Below are positions 2,042 to 29,698 of a DNA stretch of 64,000 nucleotides, piece by piece. Position 1 is the first letter of the stretch, and the number at the start of each line of letters is the position of its first letter. Both the position numbers and the translations under genes were made by a program. The DNA comes from Methanolobus mangrovi (lineage in GTDB: Archaea > Halobacteriota > Methanosarcinia > Methanosarcinales > Methanosarcinaceae), in contig NZ_CP133594.1 of the NCBI RefSeq assembly GCF_031312535.1, forward strand, positions 1,364,001 to 1,428,000, written 5' to 3'. Under the pieces are notes generated by a model that saw only the letters and a program-made list of their open reading frames with translations, ran no database searches and was not told the DNA's origin.

Positions 2042-2226
2042 ATCTATCCCTTTTATCAATTTTGGAGTTATCCAATTATTATATTTGTTAAATTTCGTAA
2101 TAAATAGTATACTTAAAGTAATACTGTTTTTCTGCACTATCTAGTTCTTTATCGTATAAAAGCACTAATCATACTAAAAAAACAAAGAAGAAAATACCGA
2201 CAAAACAAAAGATAAAGAGGCTAACA

Positions 2227-3597
2227 TCACCTGAAACATTTAACACATGACAGTATGATATCGCTCTTTGAAGATGCTTCAAGTGCCATACTCAGTCCTT
2301 CTTCAAGTCCGCAGGCATACACAACATTATTTTCATCTATGTCTTGCATTCTTTCGCCCACAAGTATCAATTGCCCAATATCCTTGCCACGCCTGCTTAC
2401 AAACTCCGAAACATTCTCAGGAGGCAAACCTTCACAAACCTGGGCAGCTTCCTCACCAAGCACCATTATGATGCTTCCACTACCAGCCTCCGGTTTACTC
2501 AAAGCATAATCCAGCGAACGTTCTGCAGAACGTATATCCATACCGGAGTTGGAATTATCGATAAGTTTCCTGCCCGAAAATTCTTTCTCCTGCATTCTTC
2601 CCTGCAGACCTTCAAAGGTGCTGATGACTTTGGAGATGTTCTCCACAGAAACCCCCATCCACATTGCTACAGAACCTGAAGCTGCAAATGCAGTTGCATA
2701 TGATCTTGAATTATAATTCTGGCGGAGGGATGAAGAAAAAACATCATCCTTGTGATCCAGAACTATACCTCCATCCTCAAAATGAATCTGAACATCGGCA
2801 TCCAACCCGTCTGAATCGCTAAAAGTGAAAAAGGTCCTGCTATTTTCCTTTGCTTTATCCAGTGCCTTTCGGTCTCTTACATTCAGGAAGAAAACCTCTC
2901 CTGGCTTGCAATGAGAAAGTACGTCAATCTTGGAATCACTTGCGTGGGAAGTTGAAGCAGCAATCATGTAATCCGGTTCCAGTGTAGTAATGATTCCCAC
3001 ATCTGCAAACCCTGTAAGACCTATTGAGACTTCAAATACGTAACATTCCGCAGTAATACCCATTTCATTCAGCCTGTCAACTGCAAGAAGTACACTTCCC
3101 GGAGCTATACTTAAACCAAGGTGAACTATCCTGGAACTACCTTTATCCCACAATTCAAGACCTCTGGAAGTATGAAGTATCACCTTCATATTCCGTGAAA
3201 GCATGTCAGCAAGCAGGGATGCAGAACTTGTTTTGGCCTTTGAACCTGTGACCTCGATCACAGTGGCATCAGCCAGAGAATTTGTCATGGATAATATCAG
3301 ACCCACGGCCCTGTGGTGGGTCATGATCTCAATCTCTTTTTCCCTGGCATCTGCAAGCATAGCATATTCAGGATACAGGTGTGCAGGGCTTACTATGAGA
3401 TCAAAGACATCAACAGGCATCGGGTCCTTCGAAGTTATTATACCGTAGTTTGATTCAAGACCTGAAAGTACATTTTCATTCACTGTCCTGTAAACATCTA
3501 CTACTGTGACATTAAAACCAAGAGAGGATAATTTCTCCGCGATGATAATGCCTGCATGAGTCAGGTCAAGAACTGCAACGTTGGTATGATCTAACAT
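2227..3597 (-). CDS. cfbE: CfbE, coenzyme F430 synthetase (Mur ligase family)
   Basis: This 456-residue protein has the layout of a Mur ligase: an N-terminal Rossmann-like domain (VAVLDLTHAGIIIAEKL), an ATP-binding P-loop EVTGSKAKTSS near residue 118, and a C-terminal domain containing the Mur-type stretch FEGLQGRMQEK. CfbE closes the last carbocyclic ring, converting seco-F430 to F430 with ATP. The gene lies 185 bases upstream of cfbD in the same direction. The Mur-family loop usually reads GTNGKTT; the GSKAKTS variant together with the operon position favours CfbE over a peptidoglycan or pseudomurein ligase. Methanosarcinales lack pseudomurein, which supports this. Confidence 0.92.
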   Translation of the reverse strand: MLDHTNVAVLDLTHAGIIIAEKLSSLGFNVTVVDVYRTVNENVLSGLESNYGIITSKDPMPVDVFDLIVSPAHLYPEYAMLADAREKEIEIMTHHRAVGLILSMTNSLADATVIEVTGSKAKTSSASLLADMLSRNMKVILHTSRGLELWDKGSSRIVHLGLSIAPGSVLLAVDRLNEMGITAECYVFEVSIGLTGFADVGIITTLEPDYMIAASTSHASDSKIDVLSHCKPGEVFFLNVRDRKALDKAKENSRTFFTFSDSDGLDADVQIHFEDGGIVLDHKDDVFSSSLRQNYNSRSYATAFAASGSVAMWMGVSVENISKVISTFEGLQGRMQEKEFSGRKLIDNSNSGMDIRSAERSLDYALSKPEAGSGSIIMVLGEEAAQVCEGLPPENVSEFVSRRGKDIGQLILVGERMQDIDENNVVYACGLEEGLSMALEASSKSDIILSCVKCFR

Positions 3598-13500: not shown

Positions 13501-13876
13501 TTTAGCTCTATTTTCAGATATTTACTCATTGTTTTTAATGACTAGTGACATCCATCTTCAATAGAAGATTTTCTCATTTGAAGTCCTGTTCATATTCAAA
13601 GATATGACATGGACACAATGTCATAAAATATAATACTTTTTTTATACTTACTTTGATGGACATTAAAAATATTTCTAGCTCCTGATACGTGTTTTGTGCA
13701 AAGATATTCCGAAAGATTTAATAATAGGTAGATTGTTTGCAATTATTAGCTATTATGCAAATATTAGATAGTTTTGTTGATAAGTTACATTGCCGTATAC
13801 ATTATGAGTGAGTTGCATATTTATATACAAATTAGTAAATGCATAATTCATAGTAAATTATAAAAAGGGGAATCAA
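13501..13876 (+). other. Long AT-rich upstream region of the DUF2162-ExbB-DUF2149 genes
   Basis: No gene is visible in this stretch. The part nearest DUF2162 contains a TATA-like element, CATATTTATATAC, near 13818-13830. It also holds an inverted pair TTTGCA...TGCAAA around 13737-13762 and two further GCATA motifs (CATATT near 13818 and GCATAATT near 13842) that could be regulator sites. A ribosome binding site AAGGGGAATC precedes ATG 13877. The length and dyads suggest a regulated promoter, but the regulator is unknown. Confidence 0.4.
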
Positions 13877-14551
13877 ATGAGTTACGTTTATGCAGCCGTG
13901 ATAGGCATATTGATAGGCATATTCATATTTGGCTTGAAGACTGGAGTAGGATGTGGTTTTTCCACTGTCAGAAAAAGAGATATCCTTATACTTGCAAGTG
14001 GTTATTTCGTCATTTCCATAATACTTGGTAGTCTGGTGGAAATGGTGGACCAGTCCTATATTGAAGCTATTTCAAATCTTGGAATGACACTGCATGTTTT
14101 CATAGCACTTATCCTTATTATCGCAGGGATATATACACAGAAAAAATGGGTCTGCGGCCATGATGTCTCAAAGAAGACATTTCTTGTTATCTCCGTACCT
14201 TGCCCTGTTTGCCTTACAGCTCTTTTTGTATCATGCATGATACTGGCATCAACCCTTGAGGTCAGCGGCTGGAAGGTCGGAGTACTTGTAGGCTTTGTTT
14301 TCTTTATTTCAGTAATATCATCAACGTGGGTCTTCAGAAAAATGAAAAGAACACCTGAGGATCTGGGAACAGCAATGATGTTCCTTGGAATTTTCTACCT
14401 GCTTGGAGCAATGATAGTTCCTGCTTATATCAAAGCAAAGAAACTCAACATGGCGTTAAGTAGTGGGGGAGAGTTTGAGATCATTCCACTGTTGATATTC
14501 ACTATTTTCATAATTGGAGGCTATGCCCTCAATAACATAAGAGGTCAATAA
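13877..14551 (+). CDS. DUF2162 putative membrane transporter
   Basis: This is a 224-residue protein with about six membrane helices. It matches my memory of DUF2162, a family annotated only as a putative transporter. Cysteines stand out: Cys26 in TGVGCGF, Cys93 and His95 in WVCGHD, and Cys109 and Cys112 in the motif PCPVC at the start of a helix. A Pro-Cys-Pro motif at a helix start is also seen in NicO/RcnA-type nickel-cobalt transporters and in the DsbD/CcdA group, so metal or thiol transport is plausible but unproven. Three bases separate it from an ExbB/TolQ-like gene, and DUF2149 and a CobN-like gene follow. The context points to metal or tetrapyrrole handling. Confidence 0.78.
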   Translation: MSYVYAAVIGILIGIFIFGLKTGVGCGFSTVRKRDILILASGYFVISIILGSLVEMVDQSYIEAISNLGMTLHVFIALILIIAGIYTQKKWVCGHDVSKKTFLVISVPCPVCLTALFVSCMILASTLEVSGWKVGVLVGFVFFISVISSTWVFRKMKRTPEDLGTAMMFLGIFYLLGAMIVPAYIKAKKLNMALSSGGEFEIIPLLIFTIFIIGGYALNNIRGQ

Positions 14552-14553
14552 AA

Positions 14554-15177
14554 ATGGATGCTACTTCTTCGTTGTTTGGTATATTATACACGTTTTCAGC
14601 TTCATTGCTGTACCCGGTAATTATCATTCTGATACTACTGGTGGTATTCTCCCTGATGCTTATAGGAGAATTCCTGTCAGAATACGCAAAAAGACATAGA
14701 GATATCGGAAACCTTGAACTGTGCTGTAACAAGGTAAGAGAACATGTCAGCTCCCAAAAGTTCGGAGGAGCTGCCAGTTCACTACGTAATGTAAAACAAA
14801 ATTTCATGGTAACAAGCTTTGCCATTTCTGCTGCAGAACATCTTGAAAAGAACATGATACCTGCCATTGAATGGCTATCACAGGAATATGAGATAAGGAT
14901 GGCAAAGAGACTTGAACAGACAAGAATCGTTGCAACTATCGCCCCAATGCTGGGCCTGATGGGAACACTCATTCCCCTTGGACCTGCACTTATAGGTCTT
15001 GCACAGGGGGATATCGTACAACTTGCAAACAACCTCATGATAGCTTTTGCTACAACTGTCATCGGCCTGTTCGCAGGAACTATCGGCTATGTGCTCACCC
15101 AGGTCAGAAAAAGATGGTACTGGCAGGATATGGCTGACATCGACTATATCCTCGACACTCTGGAGGTTGGGGAGTGA
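14554..15177 (+). CDS. MotA/TolQ/ExbB-type proton channel protein
   Basis: This 207-residue protein has an N-terminal membrane helix (about residues 13-38), a cytoplasmic helical domain, and two C-terminal helices. The signature of the family is clear at residues 124-138, RIVATIAPMLGLMGT, followed by a final helix rich in Gly and Ala. ExbB/TolQ/MotA proteins form the pentameric, ion-conducting stator of motors driven by proton or sodium motive force. It normally pairs with an ExbD/TolR/MotB protein; the neighbour DUF2149, whose GTG start overlaps this stop, is the candidate. The archaeal cell has no outer membrane or TonB target, so the output must be something else, probably the CobN-like protein. 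Confidence 0.88.
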   Translation: MDATSSLFGILYTFSASLLYPVIIILILLVVFSLMLIGEFLSEYAKRHRDIGNLELCCNKVREHVSSQKFGGAASSLRNVKQNFMVTSFAISAAEHLEKNMIPAIEWLSQEYEIRMAKRLEQTRIVATIAPMLGLMGTLIPLGPALIGLAQGDIVQLANNLMIAFATTVIGLFAGTIGYVLTQVRKRWYWQDMADIDYILDTLEVGE

Positions 15178-15542
15178 AAGGGCGAAGATACAGACGAACA
15201 GGCCTCATTAATAACGAGGACGAACAAAACCCTTTGACCGGGGTTGCCAATCTTTTTGATATTGCAATGGTCTTCTCAGTGGCACTTCTGGTAGCACTGG
15301 TGATGTCGTACCAGATGCCGGAACTTCTCAGTCCCACAGAGGACATAACAATTGTTAAGAATCCGGGACAACAGGACATGAAGATAATCATCAAAGAAGA
15401 AGGTAAACCCATTGAAGTCCTGAACATGACCGATCAGATAGGCGGAGGAACAGGAGAAGCTCTTGGTACAGCCTATAAATTGGCTGATGGAAGGGTTGTT
15501 TATGTGCCTGAGGAAGAGGGGGCGAATACAACCTCTACTTAA
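15174..15542 (+). CDS. DUF2149 single-span protein, candidate ExbD/TolR-like partner
   Basis: This 122-residue protein has a basic cytoplasmic start (MKGRRYRRTG), one membrane helix at about residues 26-46 (NLFDIAMVFSVALLVALVM) and an external C-terminal domain. I recall the family as DUF2149. The helix begins with Asp29 in the context LFDIAMVF, which resembles the essential membrane aspartate in ExbD and TolR (typically FIDVMLVL). Topology, size and position next to an ExbB-like gene also agree, so I infer an ExbD-like role. Its GTG start overlaps the ExbB-like stop (GTGA), so the two are made together. The C-terminal half has short beta-like segments such as MKIIIKEEG and GRVVYVPEE. Confidence 0.75.
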   Translation: MKGRRYRRTGLINNEDEQNPLTGVANLFDIAMVFSVALLVALVMSYQMPELLSPTEDITIVKNPGQQDMKIIIKEEGKPIEVLNMTDQIGGGTGEALGTAYKLADGRVVYVPEEEGANTTST

Positions 15543-15670
15543 TTTTTTTTGTTTTTTTAGACAAGTCTTGTTGTTTTAAATCAATTAGTGTTTATAGCAA
15601 CATAGCACATCGTTGTTTGTGATTTAAAAAAAATACAGAAATAAAACGATAATAGGCTAAGAACATAATT

Positions 15671-15710
15671 GGACACTCCCTCAAGCCGCCAAGCAAGTAC
15701 AGGAGTGTCC
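15671..15710 (+). promoter_or_regulatory. 9-bp inverted repeat in the leader of the CobN-like gene
   Basis: GGACACTCC at 15671-15679 is perfectly complementary to GGAGTGTCC at 15702-15710 with a 22-base loop. It sits 22 bases before the start codon of the CobN-like gene and is not followed by a T-run, so it is not a simple terminator. It could be an RNA regulatory element, a processing site or an operator. Confidence 0.5.
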
Positions 15711-15716
15711 TCACAA

Positions 15717-15732
15717 GTTATCGGGGGATAAC
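15717..15732 (+). promoter_or_regulatory. Hairpin containing the ribosome binding site of the CobN-like gene
   Basis: GTTATC (15717-15722) and GATAAC (15727-15732) form a 6-bp stem around a GGGG loop, directly against ATG 15733. The Shine-Dalgarno-like GGGGGAT lies in the loop and the 3' arm, so the fold would hide it. This could be a translation control element. Confidence 0.5.
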
Positions 15733-18700
15733 ATGCAAAGAAAAATAATATCAATATTAGTATTAAGCATATTGCTAATGATAACACTAACAGGTGTTGC
15801 TGCAGCAGATGAAGAGAAAATAAACATAACTTACATTGCATATAAATCGAGTGACGCACTCGAAACTGCAAGTCAAACAAATCCATATAGTGATTTCATA
15901 GATTACACTTACATTAGTTACTATGATTCTTCTAAAGACCCACAAGTAAGTGATGATATACTAGAAGCTGCAGAAAATGGCTTTTTTGAAACCCAGGATG
16001 TTGTATTCTGTAGTATGGTTTCATATGATGCTTATTCAGCTATTAATGATTCGCTGAAGTCTGCGCACGACTCCGGGACTTCACTGTTAAGCATCAAGAC
16101 TAAACTTCCAACAGTACCTACTTATTTTGATTACAGGGCATATTATGAAGATGCAAATGACATTGATGTAAATGATACAATAGCTGTTTATTTCAACAAC
16201 CTGGATACTTCAGGTAAAGGACTTGAGAATGCTGAGAACCTATTAATCTATCTTGCAACGGAATATGGTAATCATCCCGGGCTGACAGACAGTTGGGGCA
16301 CATCAAGCAAAAACTATGAGGAATTCCTGTTCATTCTTGGTACTGATTTCAACAAGGATAACCTGACAACTGCTGCTCTGGCAGAAGATATAGACCTGGA
16401 GCTTAACACAACTGTACTTTCCACGACTGATGTTCCAGATGACTTTAACTTCTCGCAATATGGTGTCATTTTTATTGAATCACAACCGGAGGAACTTGTG
16501 AACACCACATGGAGAAGCAGCATTAATACTGCAAGAGCTAGCGGTGCATATGTGATTGGTTATAACCTTTCTGAGAACATCACTCTGACAAATGTTGACC
16601 TGTATTCAGATGATTATACTGATATTGAACGGTATTGGATACAAGGTGGTGAAACGAACATGGAAACCATGCTCAGGGTTATGGGACAGAAATTTGTTGA
16701 CCTGTGGACCACCGATACCTACACTCCTGAGATAATCCAGCCAAAGATGAATGTGACCTATATCCTCAATCGTGACACCGCTGTTTACTATATGGATCTT
16801 GTATTGAATGAAAGAGAGATTATTACAGATCGTTTCAACGTTACTGTCATGGCTGGTGAGGAAGCTATCAACAACACTAATCTGGATCTTACAAATGAAG
16901 ACGTAATTATTCTTTACATGGTTGGATCTAATCAGCTTCCTTTGATCAAAGATGAGCTTCTTGAGGCACAAGCCAATGGAGCTGAGATCGGTACCTTCGG
17001 TATGCTGTCCGATGTATATGGAATTGCTACCTTTGAAATGGAAAGTGATAATTATTCCATACTCACAGATTATCTCTATAATGACGGATACGAAAATATG
17101 GAGAACTGGATCCGCAGGGTTGGAGCTACATTCGGCAGTGTTTACATACAATACGCTGACCCGGCAGAACCGGAGATTCCAACAGACGGTATTTATCATC
17201 CAGATGCATTTCCTAGAATTTTTGCAGACAGTACAGAGTATCTGGAATGGTATGCAGAACACGGCTACAATGAATCAGAACTCACAATAGGAATAATTGG
17301 TGGCCAATTTGGCCAGACCGAACTTACATTCAACTCTGAAAATGCTATTATCAGAGAGCTTGAATCACAAGGCTGCAATGTGATCTACACTACATATGCA
17401 GTGTGTAGCGATGATGTGGACTACTTCCTCAAAGATGGAGAAGTACTGGTTGATTCTATCATTTCTGTTAAAGGATTCTATCTGAACTATAACAATCAGG
17501 AAGAAGGTGTGGAGTACCTGCAGGAAGTATATAACGTTCCGGTTTTAAAAGCAGTGCAGGATTATTACCAGACACCTGAAGACTATATTAACAGCACCAG
17601 TGGATTGAGTGTTAGCTGTATACCATGGCAGGTAACACAAGCCGAAATTGATGGTCTTACTGATTACATCTGGATTGCCGGAAGAGTTCAGGATGAAGAA
17701 ACAGAACAGTATTACTATGAGCCTATTGATTATCAGGTAGAATGGCTCTGTAACAGAGCTATCGCATGGGCAGAACTTGGACAGATGGATAATTCTGACA
17801 AAAAGATAAGCATCATTTATTACAACCACGAAGGCGGTAAGAACAACATTGGTGCCAGTTATCTGGATATCGGTTCTAGTTTCACATTACTTATGGAAGC
17901 AATGCAGGCAGCAGGTTATGATATTGGAAACGACACTATTCCAAATGGAAGTGAGTTCATTGACTTATTCATAACCAGCAGAAATGTTGGTTCATGGGCA
18001 CCAGGAGAACTTGAAAAAGTTGTTGAAAGCGGCTATACAACATTGGTTCCTGTGGATGATTATCTGGTATATTATAATAAACTTCCAGAAAGTGTACGTG
18101 AAGAAGTTGAGGAAACATGGGGCGAAGCTCCTGGTGACATCATGACCTATGAGAATGAGAGTGGTGAATATTTTGTTATACCAACTGTACAGTTTGGTAA
18201 CATCAATTTCATACCGCAGCCTACAAGGGCAGGACTTTCCGATGAGTCACTCATCTACCACAATGAATCCATACCGCCAACACACCAGTACCTTGCAACA
18301 TATTTCTGGATCAACAATGATTATGATGCAGATGCACTGATTCATTTTGGTACACACGGAACACAGGAATGGCTGCCAGGTAATGAAGTAGGACTATGGA
18401 AATATGATTACCCATCCATTATGGTTGCTGAGACACCTGTAGTTTACCCATACATTATGGACAATGTTGGTGAAGGTACACAGGCTAAGCGTCGTGGTAA
18501 TGCTGTAATTATATCTCATCTGACACCTACAATAGTTGAAGCCGGGCTTTACGGTGACCTTGCTACTATACAGGATAAAATAGAGAATTATCAGGATGCA
18601 AAAGATGATGACGATGCCACAATGATGGCACTTTATCGTAACAGTACTATACAACTATACGATAATTTGAGTCTTGGTGAGGATCTTGGTTTCTCCACGA

Positions 18701-20868
18701 ATGATTTGTCTACTATGACCGATGATGAATTCTCCAGTTTCCTGGACACTACACTGGAAGAATACCTCGACGAAATCAATGATGAGCTCATACCATATGG
18801 CTTACACACCTTTGGTGTCGCACCAGAAGATTTTGAACTTGTTTCGATGGTCAAGTCCATGCTTGGTGATGACTTCATCGATCATATCTATGATGTACTT
18901 TCAGAAGGTAGCGGTACAGAGGAACAGTGGGGAGAAGAAGCAAGCGTTGATGCAACATTACTGCTGAATGCAACTTTGCTTTATGGAACTAACATCTCAG
19001 TTGCTCAGACAGATATACTTGGAACTACCAATGATTCTGTTACAGCAGATCTTGAACTCGCTCTGGAATACGCTGATAATCTAGAACAAACCACCAGAGA
19101 AATTAACCAGACATTAAAGGCACTGGATGCTGAATATATTGAGCCTGGAACTGGTAATGATCCGATACGTAATCCTGATGCTTTACCCACAGGAACGAAC
19201 TTCTACAGTTTTGATCAGAGACTGATTCCTGACGAGGAAACTGAGGCTCAAGGACGTGCAGTCATAAATGACTGGATAGACTCATATTATGCAGAGAATG
19301 GTGCTTATCCGAACAAGGTTGCCTTTATTCTATGGTCAGTCGAGACCATGCGTCACGAGGGACTCATGGAAGCACAAATATATGAGTTGCTTGGAGTAGA
19401 ACCTGTAAGGAGTTCCGGCAGATTGACCGGTGAGTTCACTGTCATACCACTAAGTAACATGACTCATCCAAGGATTGATGTATTGATGGTACCTTCCGGT
19501 CTTTATCGTGATACATTCCCATTCCAGCTTGAACTGCTGGACAATGCGGTTCGTGCAGTTGCTGACCTTAATGAGACAAATGAGACTAACTACGTAAGGA
19601 TGAACACTCTTGCTATAGAGGATGCAATGCTTGAACTGGGATACAATGAAAGTGTTGCACACTATATCTCAAGATCAAGAATATTCAGTGAGGCTGAAGG
19701 TACTTATGGTACTGGTTTAACCTCTGCAGTAGAAGCAAGTGATACATGGGATAACACATCAGAAATAGCTGATCTTTTCATTTCCAGAATGTCAAACATT
19801 TATGGAGTGGATGTATGGGGTGACAACTATGAGGATGTGTTCAAGCTCAATCTTATCAATGTAGATGCAGCAATACACAGTGATTCATCAAACCTCTATG
19901 GTCTCATGGACAACGATGACGTTTACCAGTATCTTGGTGGACTTGGTCTGGCTATAAGATCACTTGGTGGTGACGTTTCATTATATATTGCAGACTTTAC
20001 TAGTGTGGATAATCCAGAAGTCATTACTCTTGGTGAAGCTTTCAGTAAAGAACTGGCTGCCAGATATCTCAATCCTAGCTGGTTGACCGGAATGATGGAG
20101 TATGATTATGCTGGTGCCAGAGAGATGATGAAGGCAGTCGAGTACATGTGGGGCTGGGAAGCAACAACACCGGATCTGGTGACTGATTCAGACTGGGACA
20201 AGATATATGAGACACTTGTGTTGGACTCACAGAATATAGGTGTGGATGACTTCCTGAAAGAGAATGCATACCAGTATCAGTCCGTAACTGCCAGATTGAT
20301 TGAAAATATCAGAAAGGGAAGTTGGACTCCTTCAGACCCAGACACCTTGAATAATCTTGTCAATGAATTGGTTAAATCGGTGAATGAAAACGGAGTTACC
20401 TGCTGTCACCACACTTGTGGTAATGCGCAGCTTGCTGATTTCATAGCTGGAAAAATGCAGGCAGCAGGAGTCACCGCAGAAATGCAGGCAGCATACAATG
20501 AATTGATGTATGAAGCAACTCTCCGGGATCAGTTTGTGACACAGCAACAGATTGATACCAGTTCAGTAAAAACAACAGACGATTCTCTTAACTCTGTCCA
20601 AAGAACCATGGCAACAGGTTCATCAAACCAGACCATGATATCCGAGACAGGAGGAGCAGGAACGGACTATGACACACCAGTGCAGGATTCTGGAAAATCA
20701 ACACCAGACAACTACGTCCAAGGTTATGAGATGACTCAAGAGAGTGTTACTAACGACAACAGCGTGAATAGTCCATCATTCTCAAGCTCGGATATCCTTG
20801 CTTCCGTATTTGTATTAGGAGCTCTCGGGGCCATATATCTGGGATTCTGGAAAAGAAGAGGTTTCTAA
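15733..20868 (+). CDS. Giant secreted, membrane-anchored CobN-like chelatase homologue
   Basis: This 1711-residue protein has a signal peptide (residues 1-25, ending VAAA|D), a long N-terminal region of about 650 residues not found in cytosolic CobN, then a CobN/ChlH-type core and a C-terminal membrane anchor (about 1691-1705) followed by KRRGF. In the core, HFGTHGTQEWLPG at 871-883 matches the family metal-site motif with His871, His875 and Glu879; PTGTNFYSFDQR and VAFILWSVETMRHEG are further CobN blocks. A CCHHTCGN motif lies at 1557-1564. Many N-glycosylation sequons support an extracellular location. CobN/ChlH insert cobalt or magnesium into tetrapyrroles using cytosolic AAA+ subunits, which cannot reach this protein. 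With the adjacent ExbB-like pair it may bind or metallate tetrapyrroles outside the cell; the actual substrate is unknown. Confidence 0.85.
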   Translation: MQRKIISILVLSILLMITLTGVAAADEEKINITYIAYKSSDALETASQTNPYSDFIDYTYISYYDSSKDPQVSDDILEAAENGFFETQDVVFCSMVSYDAYSAINDSLKSAHDSGTSLLSIKTKLPTVPTYFDYRAYYEDANDIDVNDTIAVYFNNLDTSGKGLENAENLLIYLATEYGNHPGLTDSWGTSSKNYEEFLFILGTDFNKDNLTTAALAEDIDLELNTTVLSTTDVPDDFNFSQYGVIFIESQPEELVNTTWRSSINTARASGAYVIGYNLSENITLTNVDLYSDDYTDIERYWIQGGETNMETMLRVMGQKFVDLWTTDTYTPEIIQPKMNVTYILNRDTAVYYMDLVLNEREIITDRFNVTVMAGEEAINNTNLDLTNEDVIILYMVGSNQLPLIKDELLEAQANGAEIGTFGMLSDVYGIATFEMESDNYSILTDYLYNDGYENMENWIRRVGATFGSVYIQYADPAEPEIPTDGIYHPDAFPRIFADSTEYLEWYAEHGYNESELTIGIIGGQFGQTELTFNSENAIIRELESQGCNVIYTTYAVCSDDVDYFLKDGEVLVDSIISVKGFYLNYNNQEEGVEYLQEVYNVPVLKAVQDYYQTPEDYINSTSGLSVSCIPWQVTQAEIDGLTDYIWIAGRVQDEETEQYYYEPIDYQVEWLCNRAIAWAELGQMDNSDKKISIIYYNHEGGKNNIGASYLDIGSSFTLLMEAMQAAGYDIGNDTIPNGSEFIDLFITSRNVGSWAPGELEKVVESGYTTLVPVDDYLVYYNKLPESVREEVEETWGEAPGDIMTYENESGEYFVIPTVQFGNINFIPQPTRAGLSDESLIYHNESIPPTHQYLATYFWINNDYDADALIHFGTHGTQEWLPGNEVGLWKYDYPSIMVAETPVVYPYIMDNVGEGTQAKRRGNAVIISHLTPTIVEAGLYGDLATIQDKIENYQDAKDDDDATMMALYRNSTIQLYDNLSLGEDLGFSTNDLSTMTDDEFSSFLDTTLEEYLDEINDELIPYGLHTFGVAPEDFELVSMVKSMLGDDFIDHIYDVLSEGSGTEEQWGEEASVDATLLLNATLLYGTNISVAQTDILGTTNDSVTADLELALEYADNLEQTTREINQTLKALDAEYIEPGTGNDPIRNPDALPTGTNFYSFDQRLIPDEETEAQGRAVINDWIDSYYAENGAYPNKVAFILWSVETMRHEGLMEAQIYELLGVEPVRSSGRLTGEFTVIPLSNMTHPRIDVLMVPSGLYRDTFPFQLELLDNAVRAVADLNETNETNYVRMNTLAIEDAMLELGYNESVAHYISRSRIFSEAEGTYGTGLTSAVEASDTWDNTSEIADLFISRMSNIYGVDVWGDNYEDVFKLNLINVDAAIHSDSSNLYGLMDNDDVYQYLGGLGLAIRSLGGDVSLYIADFTSVDNPEVITLGEAFSKELAARYLNPSWLTGMMEYDYAGAREMMKAVEYMWGWEATTPDLVTDSDWDKIYETLVLDSQNIGVDDFLKENAYQYQSVTARLIENIRKGSWTPSDPDTLNNLVNELVKSVNENGVTCCHHTCGNAQLADFIAGKMQAAGVTAEMQAAYNELMYEATLRDQFVTQQQIDTSSVKTTDDSLNSVQRTMATGSSNQTMISETGGAGTDYDTPVQDSGKSTPDNYVQGYEMTQESVTNDNSVNSPSFSSSDILASVFVLGALGAIYLGFWKRRGF

Positions 20869-21062: not shown

Positions 21063-24000
21063 ATGAATAGAACTACACTCACATTCATATGTATCTTTTT
21101 GATTCTGCTTTCCACCTCTTTCGCTTCGGCCAATGATGAGAATATGATCTTTCTGAAATCAGGGAATATAGATACAGACCTACCACCGGAAAGGAATGTA
21201 TCCGAACGGGATCAGATCGGCATATCTTCAACATCTGAATTCGTGGACAGTTCCGAAACATATTATATCGTGCAATTTGAAGGACATGTCACCAAACAGT
21301 GGAAAGATGAAGTGCAGGACATCGGGGTCGAATTCTTTGATTATATTCCAAACAATGCTTTTGTTCTCAGGATGAATGGAACGGAGAAGAGTCTTGTAGA
21401 ATCACTTGATTTTGTGCGCTGGACGGATGAACTAAAACCAGAATACAAACTTTCCTCAGGACTGAACGAATATGAAGACCAGGCATCTCTTGCTTCAACA
21501 GACACGAATGCTAATCTGATAGTTGTCCTCTTTGACCCGCAAGACAATACAAGAATCATAGAAGAGATTGAAGCTATCAATGGAAACATCATCAGCAGTT
21601 CACAAACAATCCTGAGGGTTGAAATAGCCGAAAGCAGGATAGATCAACTTGCTGCAATAAATGGAATTTGCTGGGTAGAGAACTACTCGGAGCCGGTCCT
21701 GTTCAATGATGTAGCTGCAGGCATTATGAATGTCAACACTGTACATAATGAACTTGGATTGAATGGAAGTGGGCAAATCGTGGCCGTCTGCGATACCGGA
21801 CTTGATACTGGTGTTAATGATGAATCAATGCATGCTGATATTTTTGGAAGGATCATAAATATTACAGATTATTCTAATGATGGTCCCGCAGATGAAGGTC
21901 CTTTTGGGATATCCGGTGGCCATGGTACTCACGTAACAGGATCGGTTCTTGGAAACGGATCAATGTCGGATGGGCAATATAAAGGAATTGCGCCTGAAGC
22001 CAGTCTTTTATTTGAAGCAGTGCAGGATAGTGACGGGAGCCTTGGAGGAATTAGCAGAACCAGTGACCTCAGTTCCCTCTTTCAGGACGCATATGACCAG
22101 GGAGCTAGAATCCATACAAATAGTTGGGGTTACAATATTTTAGGTAGTTACACTACTCGCTCAAAACAAGTTGATCAATTTGTCTGGAATAATCCAGATA
22201 TGTTAATACTATTTGCAGCAGGGAATTATGGCGATGACTCCGATGAAAACGGTGTTGTTGACCAGAATTCTATTACTTCCCCTGCAACTTCAAAAAACTG
22301 CATTGCGGTTGGTGCTTCGGAAAATGACAGAGGCGATAATTTTGGAACTGGATACAGGATATGGGGAAATATTTATTGGCTAGCTGGGTTCTTCGAAGGA
22401 GAACCTATTAAAAGTGATTATACTGCAAATAACCCCACCGGTATTGCAGCTTTCAGTGGTCGTGGACCTACCGACGATGGAAGGATTAAACCAGAACTTG
22501 TTGCTCCGGGAACATTTATTGCTTCTACAAGGTCCAGTCTGATAACTTGGTACGAGTGGGGAATTATTAATGAATTCGATGCATCTTATGCATACAATGG
22601 TGGAACAAGTATGGCCACACCACTTGTTGCAGGTTCCGCAGCCCTTGTAAGAGAATACTATACTGAAATAGAACAATTAGATAGTCCAAGTGCTGCATTA
22701 CTAAAAGCTACCCTGCTCAATGGTGCATACGATATGACTCCCGGACAATATGGAATAGCCGAATATAAAGAGATAGCAGGTAGGCCGGATTATTCACAAG
22801 GTTGGGGACGTGTGGATGTTGAAAACTCCATACTTGTACCATATCCTGAAGTCATAGCATATTTCGATAATACTCCCCTTTCAGATTCAGGATCATGGGG
22901 CCACACGTATGAATATGTAGAAAGTGGCCAGCCCCTAAGAGCAACTCTCGTGTGGACGGATTATCCGGCATCTGAGTTGACAGGAAAAACACTGGTCAAT
23001 GATCTTGATCTTACAATTACAGATTCATCAGGCATATATTATGGGAACGATGGACCTGACCATATAAACAATGTTGAAGGAATCGAACTTAATACTGCAT
23101 TAGAAGGTGACTATACAATAACGGTCGATGGGTATGATGTTCAAGAAGGACCACAGCCCTTTGCACTGGTATTCTCATTCACCTGCGACAACAATGAGTT
23201 CCCTGCAAATGGTTCCTATGCAGATAACAGTACAACTGAAGTGTCAACCGATGTTGTACACCCCGGAGGAGTGAATGAGAGTTCCATACAGATGGAAATT
23301 GATGGTAACCTTATTGATTACACTGCTGCAAGCATAATTGATGGATACAGGATACAGTATAATGTTTCCAGCCCTTACAAGATTGGAGAACATAACGTCA
23401 CAATTACAGCTTCGACAGATACCGGGCAGCAATTTTCCTACGAATGGGAATTCAATGTGAAACCTGAGATTACAAGTTTCAAACTCACAGATCCTGCTGT
23501 TGATGGAATAATTGATGAAGAAGCAAAGACCGTAGCTATAGTAGTACCATACGGCACTGATGTAACAGCATTGACACCAACAATAGATCATACAGGATCA
23601 AATGTGTCACCTGATACTGGAGTCTCGCAGGACTTTACTAATCCGGTTACCTACACTGTAACTGCTGCTGATTCAACCACTCAAGAATATGAAGTGACAG
23701 TAACAGTAGCAGAAAACCCTGCTAAAGCGATCACAAGCTTTGAATTTGAAGCACTGGCAGTAGTTGGTACAGTAAATGAAGATACAAAGACCGTAGCTTT
23801 ATCACTACCATACGGTACTCTTGTAACATCATTGAAACCAACAATAACCCATACAGGAGCAAGTGTTTCACCTGATAGTGGAGTAGAGCAGGATTTTACT
23901 AACTCTGTTACTTACACTGTAACAGCAGAAGATGCATCAGCTCAGCAATATACAGTTACGGTGAATGTTGCTCCAAATACAGCTAAAGAGATTACAAGTT

Positions 24001-25226
24001 TCAAATTTACAGACCCTGTAGTGGAGGGGATAATAAATGAAACTGCAAAGACTGTCAATATAACAGTGCCTTATGGAACTGATAGAACAGATCTCGTACC
24101 AACTATAACTCACACTGGAGGCAAAATAGAACCAGATAGTGGATTAGCAAGGGATTTTACCAATCCTGTTACTTACAAAGTAACCGCGGAAGATACTACA
24201 ACCCAACGATACACAGTTACAGTGAATGTTGCACCAAACAAAGCTAAAGAGATTACAAGTTTCAAATTAACAGATCCTGATGCGGAAGGAATAATAAATG
24301 AAACTGCAAAGACTGTCAATATGACAGTACCGTATGGAACAAATGTTACAGCACTTGTACCAACAATTGTGCATACTGGAGAAACTATATCTCCAAATAC
24401 TGGAATCGCGCAGAACTTCACTAAACCTATAACTTATACCGTGACAGCAGAAGATGCAACTACACAGGAATACATAATAAATGTTCAAATTGCATCAAGT
24501 TCAAGCATCGTAACAGCCTCAACACCCGCAACCAGCGGAGGTGGCGGTGGAGGAGGAGGAGGAGGTGGCGGTGGAACTACAGGAGAAGAATACGAGAATA
24601 TCGAAGTGAAGGATGTCAGTTCTATCTTTGTCGGAAAGGACATTAATGTGAAATTCAACTTCAAGAATGAGAACAACGATATCCAGTATGTTTCTTACAA
24701 GTCATTGAAAAATGCAGGAACTATTTCCGTCACTATTGAGTCATTGCGGGATAAGTCAACTTTTGCTGACAGCTTTCCATCCGGGGAAATATACAAGAAC
24801 ATTAACATATGGGTTGGAAAAACAGGGTATGCAACAGATAATAACATTGAAAATCCCGTTATCGGATTCAGAGTGGACAGGCAATGGATAGAAAATAATA
24901 ATATTGATGTTGATTCGATAGCTCTTAACAGGTACAATGCCAAGTGGAGTAAACTTCTGACAACTCAAACCGATTCTGATAATGAATACTTTTATTTTGA
25001 GGCAAGCACACCAGGATTCTCGCCGTTTGCCATTACCGGTGAACCAAATGAGACAAATTTAAATAGTGTTTCTGAGAAACAGTATTCAACTGAAGATGAT
25101 AATACATCGAATCTCAATACTTCAATAGCAAATGAGAATCAACCGGAAAACACAGTTAACGCCCTCTCAATTTTAATCAGTGGCTTAATAGTATCTTTTG
25201 TCTGCTTCCTTATAAGGAAGCAGTAA
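21063..25226 (+). CDS. Secreted subtilisin-like (S8) protease with DUF5018-like repeats and PGF-pre-PGF domain
   Basis: This 1387-residue surface protease has a signal peptide (MNRTTLTFICIFLILLSTSF, cleaved near ASA|N). The catalytic triad is complete: Asp244 in VAVCDTGLD, His287 in GGHGTHVTG and Ser516 in GGTSMATPLVAG. A beta-rich post-catalytic domain follows. Residues 801-1150 hold four tandem copies of an about 87-residue domain beginning ITSFK and containing VPYGT...P-T-I-HTG...DFTNPVTYTVTAED, resembling DUF5018. A run of 13 glycines links to a PGF-pre-PGF domain (EEYENIEVKDVSS onward) and a C-terminal membrane helix ending IRKQ. It is probably anchored in the cell envelope and digests external peptides or matures surface proteins. 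A TATA-like TTTTATATAG lies near 20979. It is paralogous to the next gene. Confidence 0.93.
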   Translation: MNRTTLTFICIFLILLSTSFASANDENMIFLKSGNIDTDLPPERNVSERDQIGISSTSEFVDSSETYYIVQFEGHVTKQWKDEVQDIGVEFFDYIPNNAFVLRMNGTEKSLVESLDFVRWTDELKPEYKLSSGLNEYEDQASLASTDTNANLIVVLFDPQDNTRIIEEIEAINGNIISSSQTILRVEIAESRIDQLAAINGICWVENYSEPVLFNDVAAGIMNVNTVHNELGLNGSGQIVAVCDTGLDTGVNDESMHADIFGRIINITDYSNDGPADEGPFGISGGHGTHVTGSVLGNGSMSDGQYKGIAPEASLLFEAVQDSDGSLGGISRTSDLSSLFQDAYDQGARIHTNSWGYNILGSYTTRSKQVDQFVWNNPDMLILFAAGNYGDDSDENGVVDQNSITSPATSKNCIAVGASENDRGDNFGTGYRIWGNIYWLAGFFEGEPIKSDYTANNPTGIAAFSGRGPTDDGRIKPELVAPGTFIASTRSSLITWYEWGIINEFDASYAYNGGTSMATPLVAGSAALVREYYTEIEQLDSPSAALLKATLLNGAYDMTPGQYGIAEYKEIAGRPDYSQGWGRVDVENSILVPYPEVIAYFDNTPLSDSGSWGHTYEYVESGQPLRATLVWTDYPASELTGKTLVNDLDLTITDSSGIYYGNDGPDHINNVEGIELNTALEGDYTITVDGYDVQEGPQPFALVFSFTCDNNEFPANGSYADNSTTEVSTDVVHPGGVNESSIQMEIDGNLIDYTAASIIDGYRIQYNVSSPYKIGEHNVTITASTDTGQQFSYEWEFNVKPEITSFKLTDPAVDGIIDEEAKTVAIVVPYGTDVTALTPTIDHTGSNVSPDTGVSQDFTNPVTYTVTAADSTTQEYEVTVTVAENPAKAITSFEFEALAVVGTVNEDTKTVALSLPYGTLVTSLKPTITHTGASVSPDSGVEQDFTNSVTYTVTAEDASAQQYTVTVNVAPNTAKEITSFKFTDPVVEGIINETAKTVNITVPYGTDRTDLVPTITHTGGKIEPDSGLARDFTNPVTYKVTAEDTTTQRYTVTVNVAPNKAKEITSFKLTDPDAEGIINETAKTVNMTVPYGTNVTALVPTIVHTGETISPNTGIAQNFTKPITYTVTAEDATTQEYIINVQIASSSSIVTASTPATSGGGGGGGGGGGGGTTGEEYENIEVKDVSSIFVGKDINVKFNFKNENNDIQYVSYKSLKNAGTISVTIESLRDKSTFADSFPSGEIYKNINIWVGKTGYATDNNIENPVIGFRVDRQWIENNNIDVDSIALNRYNAKWSKLLTTQTDSDNEYFYFEASTPGFSPFAITGEPNETNLNSVSEKQYSTEDDNTSNLNTSIANENQPENTVNALSILISGLIVSFVCFLIRKQ

Positions 25227-25351: not shown

Positions 25352-28300
25352 ATGCACACTAAAAACAAGATCCTGGTACTATTTATACTCATAAATTTAA
25401 CCATTGCTACAATCTCCTCTGTGAGCGCAGACAATGGAAATACAGACGATGGCAACCTTATCCTATTAAAAGCCGGACATATAAACACAGACAATGCCAC
25501 TGAACCTGAAGAACAGAACAATGGTTCAGAAACCCAGGGACTTTCAACCATGTCCATGGAAGACACGGAAAATTACTACATTGTGCAATTTACCGGTCCT
25601 GTAAGAGCTAGTTGGAAGCAGGAAATAACATCAACAGGAGCTACCATCTATAATTATATTCCAAACAATGCATTCATCTTCAAGATGAGTGATAATGTAA
25701 AAGTCCAGGTACAATCACTGGATTTTGTTAAGTGGATTGGCGAGTATAAACCAGAATACAAATACGAGCCAGAATTAACATACACCAACAGTATTCAGAT
25801 AGCAAGTACTGAAATTGACACTGAAAATACGTACCATGTACTTCTTTTCTACTCGGAGGATTACGATAGTATAGCCAGTTCCATAGAATTACTTGGCGGA
25901 AAAATCATTTCCGGTTCAGGGAATATACTCAAAGTACAAATAGCCACGAATATGCTACCAGAGATAGCATCTATCAATGGAGTCAGCTGGATTGAAGAAT
26001 ATGTCCAGCCAACTGTAAACAATGATATTGCTGCAAATATTACCAATGCGAATACTGTTCATGAGACCTACAGATTGAATGGCAGCGGACAGATAGTAGC
26101 CATCGCCGATACAGGACTTGATACCGGAGTAAATGATAGTTCCATGCATGCAGACCTGAGGGGTAGAATCAAAAGTATAATACAAACATACAATGACGGA
26201 AGTTCAGCCGATTACGCTGGGCATGGAACCCACGTAGCAGGTTCAGTGCTTGGTAACGGCTCACTTTCAGGCGGGCAATACAGAGGAATAGCACCGGAAG
26301 CTGAATTGGTATTCCAGGCACTTGGTGATAATAACGGTAGTTCCCTTATGTATATTCCAGATGATCTGAATGACCTATTCCAAGAAGCGTACGACCTGGG
26401 AGCAAGAATACATACCAATAGTTGGGGCGGTGCTTCTAATGGAGCATATACCGTATTTTCGCTACAGGTCGACCAATTTACATGGGAACACCCAGATATG
26501 CTAATTCTTTTTTCAGCTGGAAATTCAGGAACAGATGCTGATGGCGATGGAGTCATAGATGAAGATTCCATAGCTTATCCTGCAACTGCAAAGAACTGTC
26601 TTACAGTTGGTGCATCAGAAAATGACAGAGGAGATAATTTTGGACAAGGGTCTTATCAGAATTGGGGATTCACATGGTCCAATAAATATCCTGAATCTCC
26701 AATATATGAAGATTACATGGCTAATGACATTGAAGGTATTGCTGCATTCAGCAGTCGTGGACCAACAGAGGATGGAAGGATTAAGCCTGATGTTGTTGCA
26801 CCGGGAACATTCATCATTTCTACCAGATCAAGTCTTGCAAGTGGAACAGGATGGGGTACTGTTAGTGATAATAGTAACTACTTATACATGGGTGGAACCA
26901 GCATGTCCACTCCAATCACTGCAGGGTCTGCTGCTCTTGTAAGAGAATACTACACTGAAATAGAGAATCTGAGCAGCCCAAGTGCTGCATTACTTAAAGC
27001 AACAATAATAAACGGAGCAATGGATCTCACACCCGGACAATATGGTAATGGAAGCACACAGGAAATAGAAGGTAGGCCGGATTATTCACAAGGATGGGGA
27101 CGTGTTGATATTGAAAATTCCATATATCCACAATACCCGGAAACGATCAGATATTTCGATGATCCTAAACCTTTGAACACAGGTGACTTCTGGAATGTGA
27201 GCTATGATATCCTTAATTCAGATCATCCCCTCAGAGTAACACTTGTCTGGACAGATTATCCAGGAGATGCAGCTGCAGAATTACAACTTGTGAACAACCT
27301 TGATCTCAAAGTAGTAGGACCTGATGATACATACAACGGTAATGGAAGGATCGACACGGTGAACAACGTGGAAGGTGTCGAACTGACCAATCCTTCTGCA
27401 GGAACATATACATTCATCGTGAATGGTACAGATATACCTCAAGGGCCCCAGAATTTCTCTCTTGTATTGTATTTTGCAGCCGATGTCAACGAATATCCAC
27501 AAAATGACTCATATATTACTGATAGCACAACTGCCGTTTCAGTTAACCTTACACATCCCCATGGGATCAACATAAGTAGCATAGACATGACGACAGATGG
27601 TACCGAGGTGCTCCCCTCTTGGGTGAATATCACTGGCGGATACAAGGTAGAGAATATAACAACATACTCTGAAGGATACCACACTGTATCTGTGAGTGCA
27701 TTGACAAACCTGAGTGAAGAGATCAGTTACGGATGGAGATTTTACGCCAGCGTTGAAGACAACGTAATTACGATAGAGGGGCTTGCAGAGAATTCGGTGA
27801 TACAGGAAGAAACACTCGACATAAATGTCAGCAACAGAAAACTATGTGACTTCTGGTACAACGTTGACAATGGAACAAATTCCACAACAGAAACAGGATT
27901 TTCATTTAATACTACCCTCAACCTGACAGAGGGACGACATAATCTTACAGTATTTGCTGAGGACATAACAGGATATATAAATTCAACAACTGTTAATTTC
28001 ACGGTATTCACAAGCCAACCAATTATTGATTCACCTGAGTCAGGAACTATCTATTATCTGCCAGAAGAGGACAGTTTTACAATGAATGGAACTGCAGGAG
28101 TTGCCACAAATGTTTCAGTCTATGTGAATGGAAACATTACCACTGAATCCTGGCCTGTTTCAAGCGGTGTGTTCAATATCAGCAACATTCCACTTTCTAA
28201 TGGAACAAACACCGTCAACATTACATCCATCTTCAATAATTCAGTGGATGATTATTTCAGTCCCAATACCACCATATACCTGGGCCTTGGGGAGACTTTC

Positions 28301-29698
28301 AACACAGGTGGAAATGATGAAGTAACACTTGCAGTTCCAGGAATAGAAACCGGTATCGTTCACCCGGTACTTAACTTCAATATCAGCGGTACACCTGCCA
28401 ATCCGGGCAATGTATCTGCAGCTATTGTAACAGGTAATGAACCTGAAAACAGCTCTAATTTGACAGGCCATGCAATTGATATCAAAGTGATAAATGCATC
28501 TGATGCCAACTATTCATATCAATTCGGCAGAAATGTATCCCTTACACTCGGATATAACCATAGCCTTGTTAATGGGAATAGTACCGGAAAGCTTGTGGTC
28601 GCATGGTATAACCCTGAAGAAGAGATGTGGATCCCATTCAGAAGTACGGTAAATACCTCCGAACATACTGTTACTGCAAATATTACCCACTTGAGCATTT
28701 ATGCTCCACTTGAAGATAACACCGCACCTGTGATTTCCGATCTGACAAATTCCAGTACTTTATCATCCATAACCCTCACATGGAGCGAATCGGATGATAC
28801 CGACCATGTAGAGATATGGAAAAACAATGCATTCCTTGAGAACAGTTCTGAACAGCTAATGGCAGACACTGGACTTTCTTCCAGCACAAGCTACAATTAC
28901 AGTCTCAGAGCCATCGATTTTGCAGGTAACATTGGTAACTGGTCCAATATGACCGTAGCAACATCCTTACAGGCCAGTACTCCATCCAACCCCAGTTCCT
29001 CCGGAGGTGGTGGTGGAGGTGGGGGTTCCACAGGCGAAGAGTATGAGAACATTGCTTTTAAAGATGTACTTTCAGTGTATGCCGGAAAAGGGGATATAGT
29101 ATACTTTGATTTTGATAATGAGAACAACGATATAGATTATGTCCGCTATAATTCGCTGAAGAATGCTGGAAAGATCAGTACTACCATTGAGATTTTGAAA
29201 AATACATCTACATTTGCAGACAGCCCGGTTTCCGGATTAATATACAGGAACATGAACATCTGGGTTGGTAAGACAGGTTACGCCACTGAGGGTAATGTCA
29301 AAGACCCCGTTATAGGGTTCAGGGTAAGTAAAAAATGGATAGAGAACAATGACATTGATCCAGCTACCATAGCATTGAACAGGTATAATGAGGAAAACTG
29401 GGAAATGCTTGATACTAAACAGAATGACCCTGATGATAACTATCTTTACTTTGAAGCGAGCACTCAGGGATTCTCACCTTTTGCAATTACTGCACAAGAA
29501 CCATTAACAAAGAATACAGACGATATTGAAATCACTGTAACTGACATGAGTGATTCCGCAATAAAAGATACTGATACCGACACAGACCCTAGACAAAATG
29601 AAAATGATGGTGCCAGGAAGATTCCGGCAATATCCGGAATGATAACAATGATGATATTGGCCATCACCTGCGTATTCATCAGAAAACAGCAAAATTAA
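25352..29698 (+). CDS. Second secreted subtilisin-like (S8) protease with PGF-pre-PGF domain
   Basis: This 1448-residue protein is a tandem paralogue of the upstream protease. It has a signal peptide (MHTKNKILVLFILINLTIAT, cleaved near VSA|D) and an intact triad: Asp253 in VAIADTGLD, His291 in GHGTHVAG and Ser517 in GGTSMSTPITAG. The N-terminal propeptide and catalytic parts resemble the first copy closely, for example YYIVQF and NYIPNNAF. The middle differs: instead of DUF5018-like repeats it has Ig-like domains with many Asn glycosylation sites. A Gly/Ser linker leads to a shared PGF-pre-PGF domain and a C-terminal helix ending FIRKQQN. Likely role: anchored extracellular peptidase. The different middle regions suggest different substrates or surface partners. 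Confidence 0.93.
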   Translation: MHTKNKILVLFILINLTIATISSVSADNGNTDDGNLILLKAGHINTDNATEPEEQNNGSETQGLSTMSMEDTENYYIVQFTGPVRASWKQEITSTGATIYNYIPNNAFIFKMSDNVKVQVQSLDFVKWIGEYKPEYKYEPELTYTNSIQIASTEIDTENTYHVLLFYSEDYDSIASSIELLGGKIISGSGNILKVQIATNMLPEIASINGVSWIEEYVQPTVNNDIAANITNANTVHETYRLNGSGQIVAIADTGLDTGVNDSSMHADLRGRIKSIIQTYNDGSSADYAGHGTHVAGSVLGNGSLSGGQYRGIAPEAELVFQALGDNNGSSLMYIPDDLNDLFQEAYDLGARIHTNSWGGASNGAYTVFSLQVDQFTWEHPDMLILFSAGNSGTDADGDGVIDEDSIAYPATAKNCLTVGASENDRGDNFGQGSYQNWGFTWSNKYPESPIYEDYMANDIEGIAAFSSRGPTEDGRIKPDVVAPGTFIISTRSSLASGTGWGTVSDNSNYLYMGGTSMSTPITAGSAALVREYYTEIENLSSPSAALLKATIINGAMDLTPGQYGNGSTQEIEGRPDYSQGWGRVDIENSIYPQYPETIRYFDDPKPLNTGDFWNVSYDILNSDHPLRVTLVWTDYPGDAAAELQLVNNLDLKVVGPDDTYNGNGRIDTVNNVEGVELTNPSAGTYTFIVNGTDIPQGPQNFSLVLYFAADVNEYPQNDSYITDSTTAVSVNLTHPHGINISSIDMTTDGTEVLPSWVNITGGYKVENITTYSEGYHTVSVSALTNLSEEISYGWRFYASVEDNVITIEGLAENSVIQEETLDINVSNRKLCDFWYNVDNGTNSTTETGFSFNTTLNLTEGRHNLTVFAEDITGYINSTTVNFTVFTSQPIIDSPESGTIYYLPEEDSFTMNGTAGVATNVSVYVNGNITTESWPVSSGVFNISNIPLSNGTNTVNITSIFNNSVDDYFSPNTTIYLGLGETFNTGGNDEVTLAVPGIETGIVHPVLNFNISGTPANPGNVSAAIVTGNEPENSSNLTGHAIDIKVINASDANYSYQFGRNVSLTLGYNHSLVNGNSTGKLVVAWYNPEEEMWIPFRSTVNTSEHTVTANITHLSIYAPLEDNTAPVISDLTNSSTLSSITLTWSESDDTDHVEIWKNNAFLENSSEQLMADTGLSSSTSYNYSLRAIDFAGNIGNWSNMTVATSLQASTPSNPSSSGGGGGGGGSTGEEYENIAFKDVLSVYAGKGDIVYFDFDNENNDIDYVRYNSLKNAGKISTTIEILKNTSTFADSPVSGLIYRNMNIWVGKTGYATEGNVKDPVIGFRVSKKWIENNDIDPATIALNRYNEENWEMLDTKQNDPDDNYLYFEASTQGFSPFAITAQEPLTKNTDDIEITVTDMSDSAIKDTDTDTDPRQNENDGARKIPAISGMITMMILAITCVFIRKQQN

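Follow-up and report, generated by a model that had tools for sequence, protein, structure and literature searches.

A candidate cell-surface metal-release operon in Methanolobus mangrovi and its kinship with the Bacteroidota hmu system

Operon organization

The subject of this study is a four-gene operon, T-U-V-S, in a 64,000-nucleotide stretch of the Methanolobus mangrovi genome (contig NZ_CP133594.1, positions 1,364,001 to 1,428,000), hereafter the window. It encodes a DUF2162 membrane protein (T), an ExbB/TolQ/MotA-family channel subunit (U), a single-span DUF2149 protein (V), and an exported, membrane-anchored protein of the CobN/HmuS chelatase family (S), the last three of which are homologous to HmuU, HmuV, and HmuS of the Bacteroidota hmu operon. 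Open reading frame and profile searches found the genes intact, in this order and on the plus strand, at 13877-20868, as listed in an initial annotation made from the sequence. Its description of the first three genes as tightly packed or overlapping also held: T and U are separated by 2 bp, U and V overlap by 4 bp (GTGA), and 190 bp lie between V and S.

13877..14551, plus strand: T, DUF2162 membrane protein (PF09930, E 1.4e-68), a probable NicO/LysE-superfamily metal permease
14554..15177, plus strand: U, ExbB/TolQ/MotA-family channel subunit, HmuU homolog (PF01618, E 1.5e-11)
15174..15542, plus strand: V, DUF2149 single-span protein in the ExbD-like position, HmuV homolog (PF09919, E 2.4e-35)
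15733..20868, plus strand: S, exported, membrane-anchored, chelatase-like protein of the CobN/HmuS family, 1711 aa (PF02514, 1091 bits)

The 2.62-Mb genome has no PF02514 protein besides S and no MotA_ExbB protein besides U, and a search for PF02472 (ExbD) gave no match either here or in 19 relatives (20 genomes in all). Two elements upstream of T appear to belong to the operon.

13709..13724, plus strand: archaeal B recognition element (BRE)/TATA-like element CCGAAAGATTTAATA, a probable promoter kept in most aligned congeners
13734..13763, plus strand: operator-like inverted repeat TGTTTG-N4-TATTAG-N8-CAAATA, at the place where the transcription start is expected

The inverted repeat lies just downstream of the conserved BRE/TATA element and had no chance matches in 100 shuffles. 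Written as TGTTTG-N4-TATTAG-N8-CAAAYA, it occurs in exactly one copy per genome in seven of nine congeners, always upstream of a T gene. A relaxed pattern returned scattered sites that were not common between genomes; a shared regulon was therefore rejected and the claim restricted to an operon-specific site. No structural RNA or riboswitch was found upstream of the operon, a tRNA being the only structural RNA in the window.

Kinship with the hmu operon

HmuS, encoded in the operon hmuYRSTUV, has been proven by experiment to be a heme de-chelatase acting outside the cytoplasm; it works in vitro without an AAA+ partner, and loss of His538 abolishes its activity (PMC12583661). The premise of the initial annotation that CobN and ChlH chelatases are cytosolic and require ATP is incomplete in this respect. 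The best PDB match of S was HmuS of Bacteroides thetaiotaomicron (9d26, 435 bits; CobN, 394; ChlH, 381), and S failed the NCBIfam CobN equivalog cutoff, its best score being 1236.7 bits against 1619. S shares the PF02514 family and the HxGxHG motif with the cobaltochelatase CobN(ST) and the magnesium chelatase ChlH(ID), but those are cytosolic enzymes of ATP- and AAA+-dependent metal insertion, whereas S is exported.

For comparison with the archaeal U and V profiles, 38 Bacteroidota hmuS loci were fetched, and the profiles matched HmuU (E about 1e-50) and HmuV (E about 1e-37), encoded downstream of hmuS. Profile-profile comparison gave E 4e-55 and 39% identity for U and HmuU and E 3e-36 and 49% identity for V and HmuV, the latter likeness including the V ectodomain. 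In a transcriptome study, HmuU is annotated as MotA/TolQ/ExbB and HmuV as DUF2149 (PMC10434189). Among 92 V sequences from archaea and bacteria, both the transmembrane segment (NLFD..MVF) and the ectodomain (T.VKNPG..M.II and G..YVP) are conserved. As in the stators ExbB-ExbD-TonB and MotA-MotB, U belongs to PF01618 and V is a single-span protein whose membrane edge carries an acidic residue (D29, at the start of the transmembrane segment). Neither U nor V had a significant match among solved structures.

In a tree with cytosolic archaeal CobNs as the outgroup, from which ChlH was left out and whose root is an assumption, all U-V-linked S proteins (archaeal, proteobacterial, Runella, and HmuS) grouped together with a support of 0.99, and the cytosolic archaeal CobNs formed a separate clade. 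The system is not without precedent: S-U-V also makes up the core of hmu in Bacteroidota, where S is likewise exported and C-terminally anchored and the HFGTHG histidine is kept (the CobN-like family is also called BtuS). The archaeal system differs from hmu in having no HmuY, no HmuR, and no outer membrane, and in carrying the unrelated DUF2162 protein in place of HmuT; T as a HmuT ortholog was rejected, the hhalign probability of DUF2162 against HmuT being 0.9%. The 2025 HmuS study noted that archaea have many HmuS homologs without complete hmu operons and that their use was unclear. With the S-U-V set itself already known from hmu, what is new in archaea is the repetition of the head domain, described below, and the once-per-genome operator-like palindrome.

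Export, catalytic residues, and head domains of S

15733..15804, plus strand: signal peptide of S (residues 1-24), a hydrophobic segment of Kyte-Doolittle score 2.6, export being backed by sequon density
15811..16275, plus strand: head domain 1 (residues 27-181; iterated head hidden Markov model [HMM], 94 bits; AlphaFold2 model)
16309..16704, plus strand: head domain 2 (residues 193-324; iterated head HMM, 114 bits)
16738..17142, plus strand: head domain 3 (residues 336-470; 109 bits), which aligns with the single head of HmuS and CobN
18343..18360, plus strand: HFGTHG motif (residues 871-876), with catalytic His875 equivalent to HmuS His538 by alignment
19915..19920, plus strand: Asp1395-Asp1396, at the place of HmuS Asp1208-His1209 by alignment
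20794..20844, plus strand: C-terminal membrane anchor (about residues 1688-1704), followed by a KRR tail, from topology analysis

The signal peptide, glycosylation sequons, and C-terminal anchor reported in the initial annotation were all recovered, and export signals together with sequon density argue against a cytosolic location of S. The protein carries 31 N-glycosylation sequons, compared with 16.2 +/- 3.7 in shuffled sequences, none of 500 shuffles reaching 31; the density was 18.9 per 1000 residues in exported archaeal S proteins versus 1.7 in cytosolic archaeal CobNs. Nearly all full-length archaeal U-V-linked S proteins combine an N-terminal hydrophobic signal with a C-terminal transmembrane helix and a short basic tail, two with uncertain starts (one in locus L036, one in L038) having no clear N-terminal signal. 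The same topology was present in the seven bacterial U-V-linked S proteins analyzed, and unlinked archaeal CobNs had neither the signal nor the helix.

The equivalent of HmuS Glu577 is also kept in S, and most S proteins retain both the catalytic histidine and the glutamate. The HmuS motif LSLDHxxEFMGG, which contains His1209 and Glu1212, is not kept in S, where MDNDDVYQYLGG has Asp and Gln instead. Among bacterial S proteins, the HmuS-type copies and Azospirillum have His at the His1209 position, and the rest have Asp. No methionine-rich stretch comparable to the insertion in HmuS domain IV was obvious in the S translation, in which methionine richness was not measured. At three loci of cytosolic archaeal CobNs (L116, L124, and L128), the acidic motif at the His1209 position gives way to a CGCCC or CCC run of cysteines, perhaps the metal site of another chelatase subfamily.

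Some S paralogs lack the catalytic histidine. Two paralogs of one subclade (L058, 4888-9651, and L065, 7735-12465), at least one of which is without the HxGxHG histidine region, are perhaps binding-only proteins.

The DNDD motif of S at the His1209 position resembles that of some cytosolic CobNs, which is consistent with the version put forward in the initial annotation, that S is a forward chelatase loading an exported tetrapyrrole or metallophore and that U-V replaces CobS-CobT or ChlI-ChlD. The genome also has no evident ChlI-type protein: the best PF01078 match, an apparent ChlI-type partner of S, was rejected when it proved to be the Lon protease (the CobS and CobT families were not searched). 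We nevertheless consider forward chelation very unlikely, since we know of no exported empty tetrapyrrole in methanogens and the bacterial context, with its TonB receptors, NikR, and hyp genes, is one of uptake. The idea of a motor standing in for the AAA+ ATPase is plausible and is indirectly favored by the lack of an ExbD, of a second ExbB, and of an outer membrane, but as first stated it was not supported.

The class I chelatase head domain is present in three copies in S and in one to seven copies in the other archaeal exported S proteins, compared with a single copy in HmuS, in the bacterial U-V-linked S proteins, and in nearly all cytosolic CobNs. An AlphaFold2 model of the three heads had a predicted local distance difference test (pLDDT) score of 87, and its first solved match was HmuS (E 4.5e-5). 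Tandem head duplication was also seen at L035 (12200-19054) and L041 (8164-14184).

The DUF2162 protein T

13952..14212, plus strand: invariant cysteines of T, C26 and the C109-P-V-C112 pair of the PCPVC motif, from 36 sequences

In 36 T homologs, K21, C26, D96, and the PCP-C motif at 108-112 are invariant; both cysteines of the PCPVC motif singled out in the initial annotation (C109 and C112) are among these residues. Family searches matched T to DUF2162 only. A genuine NicO nickel/cobalt permease of the same genome matched the DUF2162 model with E 9e-5, below the cutoff, and the protein in the T slot of Runella had weak matches to DsbD_2 and NicO. The AlphaFold2 model of T is all-helical (pLDDT 82). 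From these sequence comparisons we favor a metal permease weakly related to NicO; T may instead be a thiol or electron carrier of the DsbD type, a role that would make sense because HmuS needs reductant. A T fragment of 124 aa between two S genes (L049, 8273-8647) is apparently a duplication remnant.

Co-occurrence and locus order

The co-occurrence sample comprised 246 archaeal genomes of the phylum, together with bacterial plasmid records. V was present in 73 of the 246 genomes, and T exceeded the cutoff in 70, all of them among those 73. Every V genome (73/73) encoded a CobN-family protein, compared with 149 of 246 overall, so that DUF2149 and DUF2162 do not occur mostly apart from CobN, as the initial annotation had thought they might were its reading wrong. 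The grouping of V, T, and CobN is far beyond chance (Fisher tests: V-T, p = 2e-58; V-CobN, p = 1e-20), and T and CobN are both missing from four genomes of the same family in which V is absent.

In the 42 archaeal V loci read, U always adjoined V (42/42), T lay no more than 1.2 kb away in 36, and 32 encoded a CobN-family protein in the same stretch of about 20 kb; the copy at L069 is of the cytosolic type, leaving an exported S in 31. The usual order was T-U-V-S, with up to three S genes after one T-U-V. To this extent the reading of the initial annotation is supported, namely that a chelatase-family protein outside the membrane works with its own ExbB/DUF2149 pair and with what is probably a metal permease. 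V was found in 10 bacterial plasmid records, and all nine that were opened encode an exported or HmuS-type CobN near U-V; the tenth, from Pseudoalteromonas, has the same match score and position as the one opened. On plasmid pGLOV01 of Trichlorobacter lovleyi, families and order are identical to those in the window (T-U-V-S), with the differences that a TonB receptor precedes T, a complete ExbB-ExbD-TonB set and a second receptor follow S, and S has one head. Because a separate TonB energizing set is present, U-V is not the TonB energizer in Trichlorobacter.

Among the T-U-V or U-V loci where the stretch read encoded no exported S were L037 (12356-13338), L050 (4083-5828), L052, L054, L061, L062, and L071. 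At L050 and L052, T-U-V adjoins radical SAM/SPASM genes; these scored far below the cutoff of the AhbD/NirJ models, and a link to heme synthesis is not claimed.

The locus architecture also bears on the possibility that T-U-V is an ion-driven importer of a whole tetrapyrrole or cobamide, for which S would serve as an extracellular receptor or loader and not as a de-chelatase. T, U, and V form the tightest unit, with S set 190 bp apart; up to three tandem S paralogs accompany one T-U-V set, some having lost the catalytic histidine, and a published model places HmuTUV in inner-membrane transport (PMC13227078). T, however, is small for a tetrapyrrole channel, all-helical, and weakly NicO-like, and the catalytic histidine and glutamate are kept in most S proteins, so that we regard whole-complex import as unlikely.

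Metal context of related loci

Genes for cobalt and B12 metabolism accompany the operon at several loci: cbiT, cbiL, cbiF/G, and cobD lie directly 3' of S at L060, cbiM, cbiO, and cbiL near S at L063, and a cobalt-type energy-coupling factor (ECF) ATPase beside T at L066. A HypB-like protein is encoded near S at L065. On a Runella slithyformis plasmid (L131), a TonB receptor, a NicO-like protein, U, V, and an exported CobN are flanked by hypABF and hypCDE, and this NiFe-hydrogenase maturation cluster suggests nickel uptake. On an Azospirillum brasilense plasmid (L133), an exported CobN annotated as a cobaltochelatase is followed by U-V and then by an ATP-binding cassette (ABC) importer, a TonB receptor, and nikR. 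The Trichlorobacter U-V-S genes neighbor cobT/bzaF, and HmuY is encoded at the Aureibacter and Bacteroides loci. Zinc starvation induces the Pseudomonas aeruginosa operon PA1922-PA1925, which by its published description combines a CobN-like protein with an ExbD-like gene (PMC4542158); it includes a TonB receptor, in which it differs from the archaeal operon. These contexts are best explained by a general function of removing metals from chelates, the substrate varying by lineage, and for methanogens we favor cobalt or nickel as the metal.

Iron also has its indications. In heme-iron salvage of the Bacteroidota kind, S would take iron from heme or siroheme at the cell surface, the iron would enter via FeoB, and T would be accessory. 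HmuS is the best PDB match of S, a DtxR-type iron-dependent repressor is encoded beside one T-U-V locus (L034), and two CobN-like "BtuS" proteins of Methanosarcina barkeri shift in abundance with the iron and sulfur source, although the authors note that the entire operon is lacking (PMC10846266). Heme-iron salvage is nonetheless improbable in our assessment. Neither the heme-site ligands (Met79 and His254) nor the second catalytic histidine is present in S, cobalt and B12 genes are the neighbors in several archaea, and Fe(II) is rarely short for methanogens in anoxic sediment.

Proposed function and the arguments against it

The interpretation that we favor, with slightly more confidence than doubt, is that the operon encodes a cell-surface machine, kin to HmuS-HmuU-HmuV, that frees metal (most likely cobalt or nickel, possibly iron) from tetrapyrrole or similar complexes. 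S would stand outside the membrane, tethered by its C-terminal helix, and its tandem heads would bind the metal complex and hand it over to the central cleft, where His875 may help to protonate the ring and so free the metal. U and V would act as a stator of the ExbB/ExbD type, drawing on the ion gradient, because there is no ATP outside, to move S through the V ectodomain, whether for opening, substrate hand-over, or product release. T, NicO-like and with conserved cysteines, would bring the freed metal into the cell.

Published models treat HmuU-HmuV as the ExbB-ExbD of the outer-membrane receptor HmuR (PMC12583661; PMC10100974). The partner outside the cytoplasm that U-V has in common across archaea, Bacteroidota, and Proteobacteria is S. 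Also in favor of our interpretation, Porphyromonas gingivalis HmuS is stimulated far more by the native inner-membrane fraction than by that of Escherichia coli (PMC13227078). Archaea keep U-V at 39 to 49% identity although they lack an outer membrane, and Trichlorobacter has its separate TonB set; U-V therefore most likely drives S, or S with T, and not TonB. More tentatively, and with rather more doubt than confidence, we propose that U-V is an unrecognized class of ion-motive motor, found in archaea and Gram-negative bacteria, whose client is the exported chelatase, that the assignment of HmuUV to TonB-dependent import is wrong, and that the methanogen heads possibly store substrate.

Several observations weigh against this interpretation. 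The HmuS His1209 position is Asp in S and in 32 of 35 archaeal S proteins, and the head and neck heme ligands Met79 and His254 are not conserved, Val and Gly being aligned in S. Although it shares topology, partners, and one catalytic residue with HmuS, S is therefore HmuS-like but not a HmuS, and its substrate and mechanism differ from those of HmuS. The NicO link of T is weak, and a Foldseek search with the AlphaFold2 model of T returned no solved fold match. V gave no profile match with a single ExbD; membership in the ExbD family, already without a PF02472 representative in the genome, was therefore rejected, and only a positional and motif analogy is claimed. No metal gene adjoins the operon in the window. 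Purified HmuS acts in vitro without U-V. At eleven of the 42 archaeal V loci, two of them at contig ends, the stretch encodes no exported S, and a Bacteroidota survey reported 981 species with R-T-U-V in which S was undetected (PMC10100974), so that U-V may have another partner.

Should the motor role of U-V be correct, U-V would perform, on the outer side of the membrane, the mechanical work done inside for CobN and ChlH by AAA+ ATPases, and the retention of S-U-V in archaea, which lack an outer membrane, turns the HmuUV-TonB assumption into a testable question. This retention also offers one explanation for all the "CobN" genes that occur in operons for the acquisition of heme, nickel, cobalt, and zinc, and methylotrophic methanogens, dependent on corrinoids and F430, may recycle tetrapyrrole metals in this way. 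The comparison also carries a warning, in that many "cobaltochelatase CobN" annotations denote exported proteins unrelated to cobalt insertion into B12.

Neighboring genes

The F430 operon that the initial annotation placed 10 kb away is present, with CfbC-, CfbD-, and CfbE-like genes recognizable by sequence on the minus strand at 114-3597, but neither gene order nor conservation supports a functional link. Housekeeping genes lie between, so the F430 genes are not part of the T-U-V-S unit, and the linkage was rejected, these genes being absent also from the neighborhoods read in other genera. Directly 3' of S are two tandem genes for exported subtilisin-like proteases with a Gly-rich linker, at 21063-25226 (1387 aa) and 25352-29698 (1448 aa), the first of which bears repeated DUF5018-type domains.

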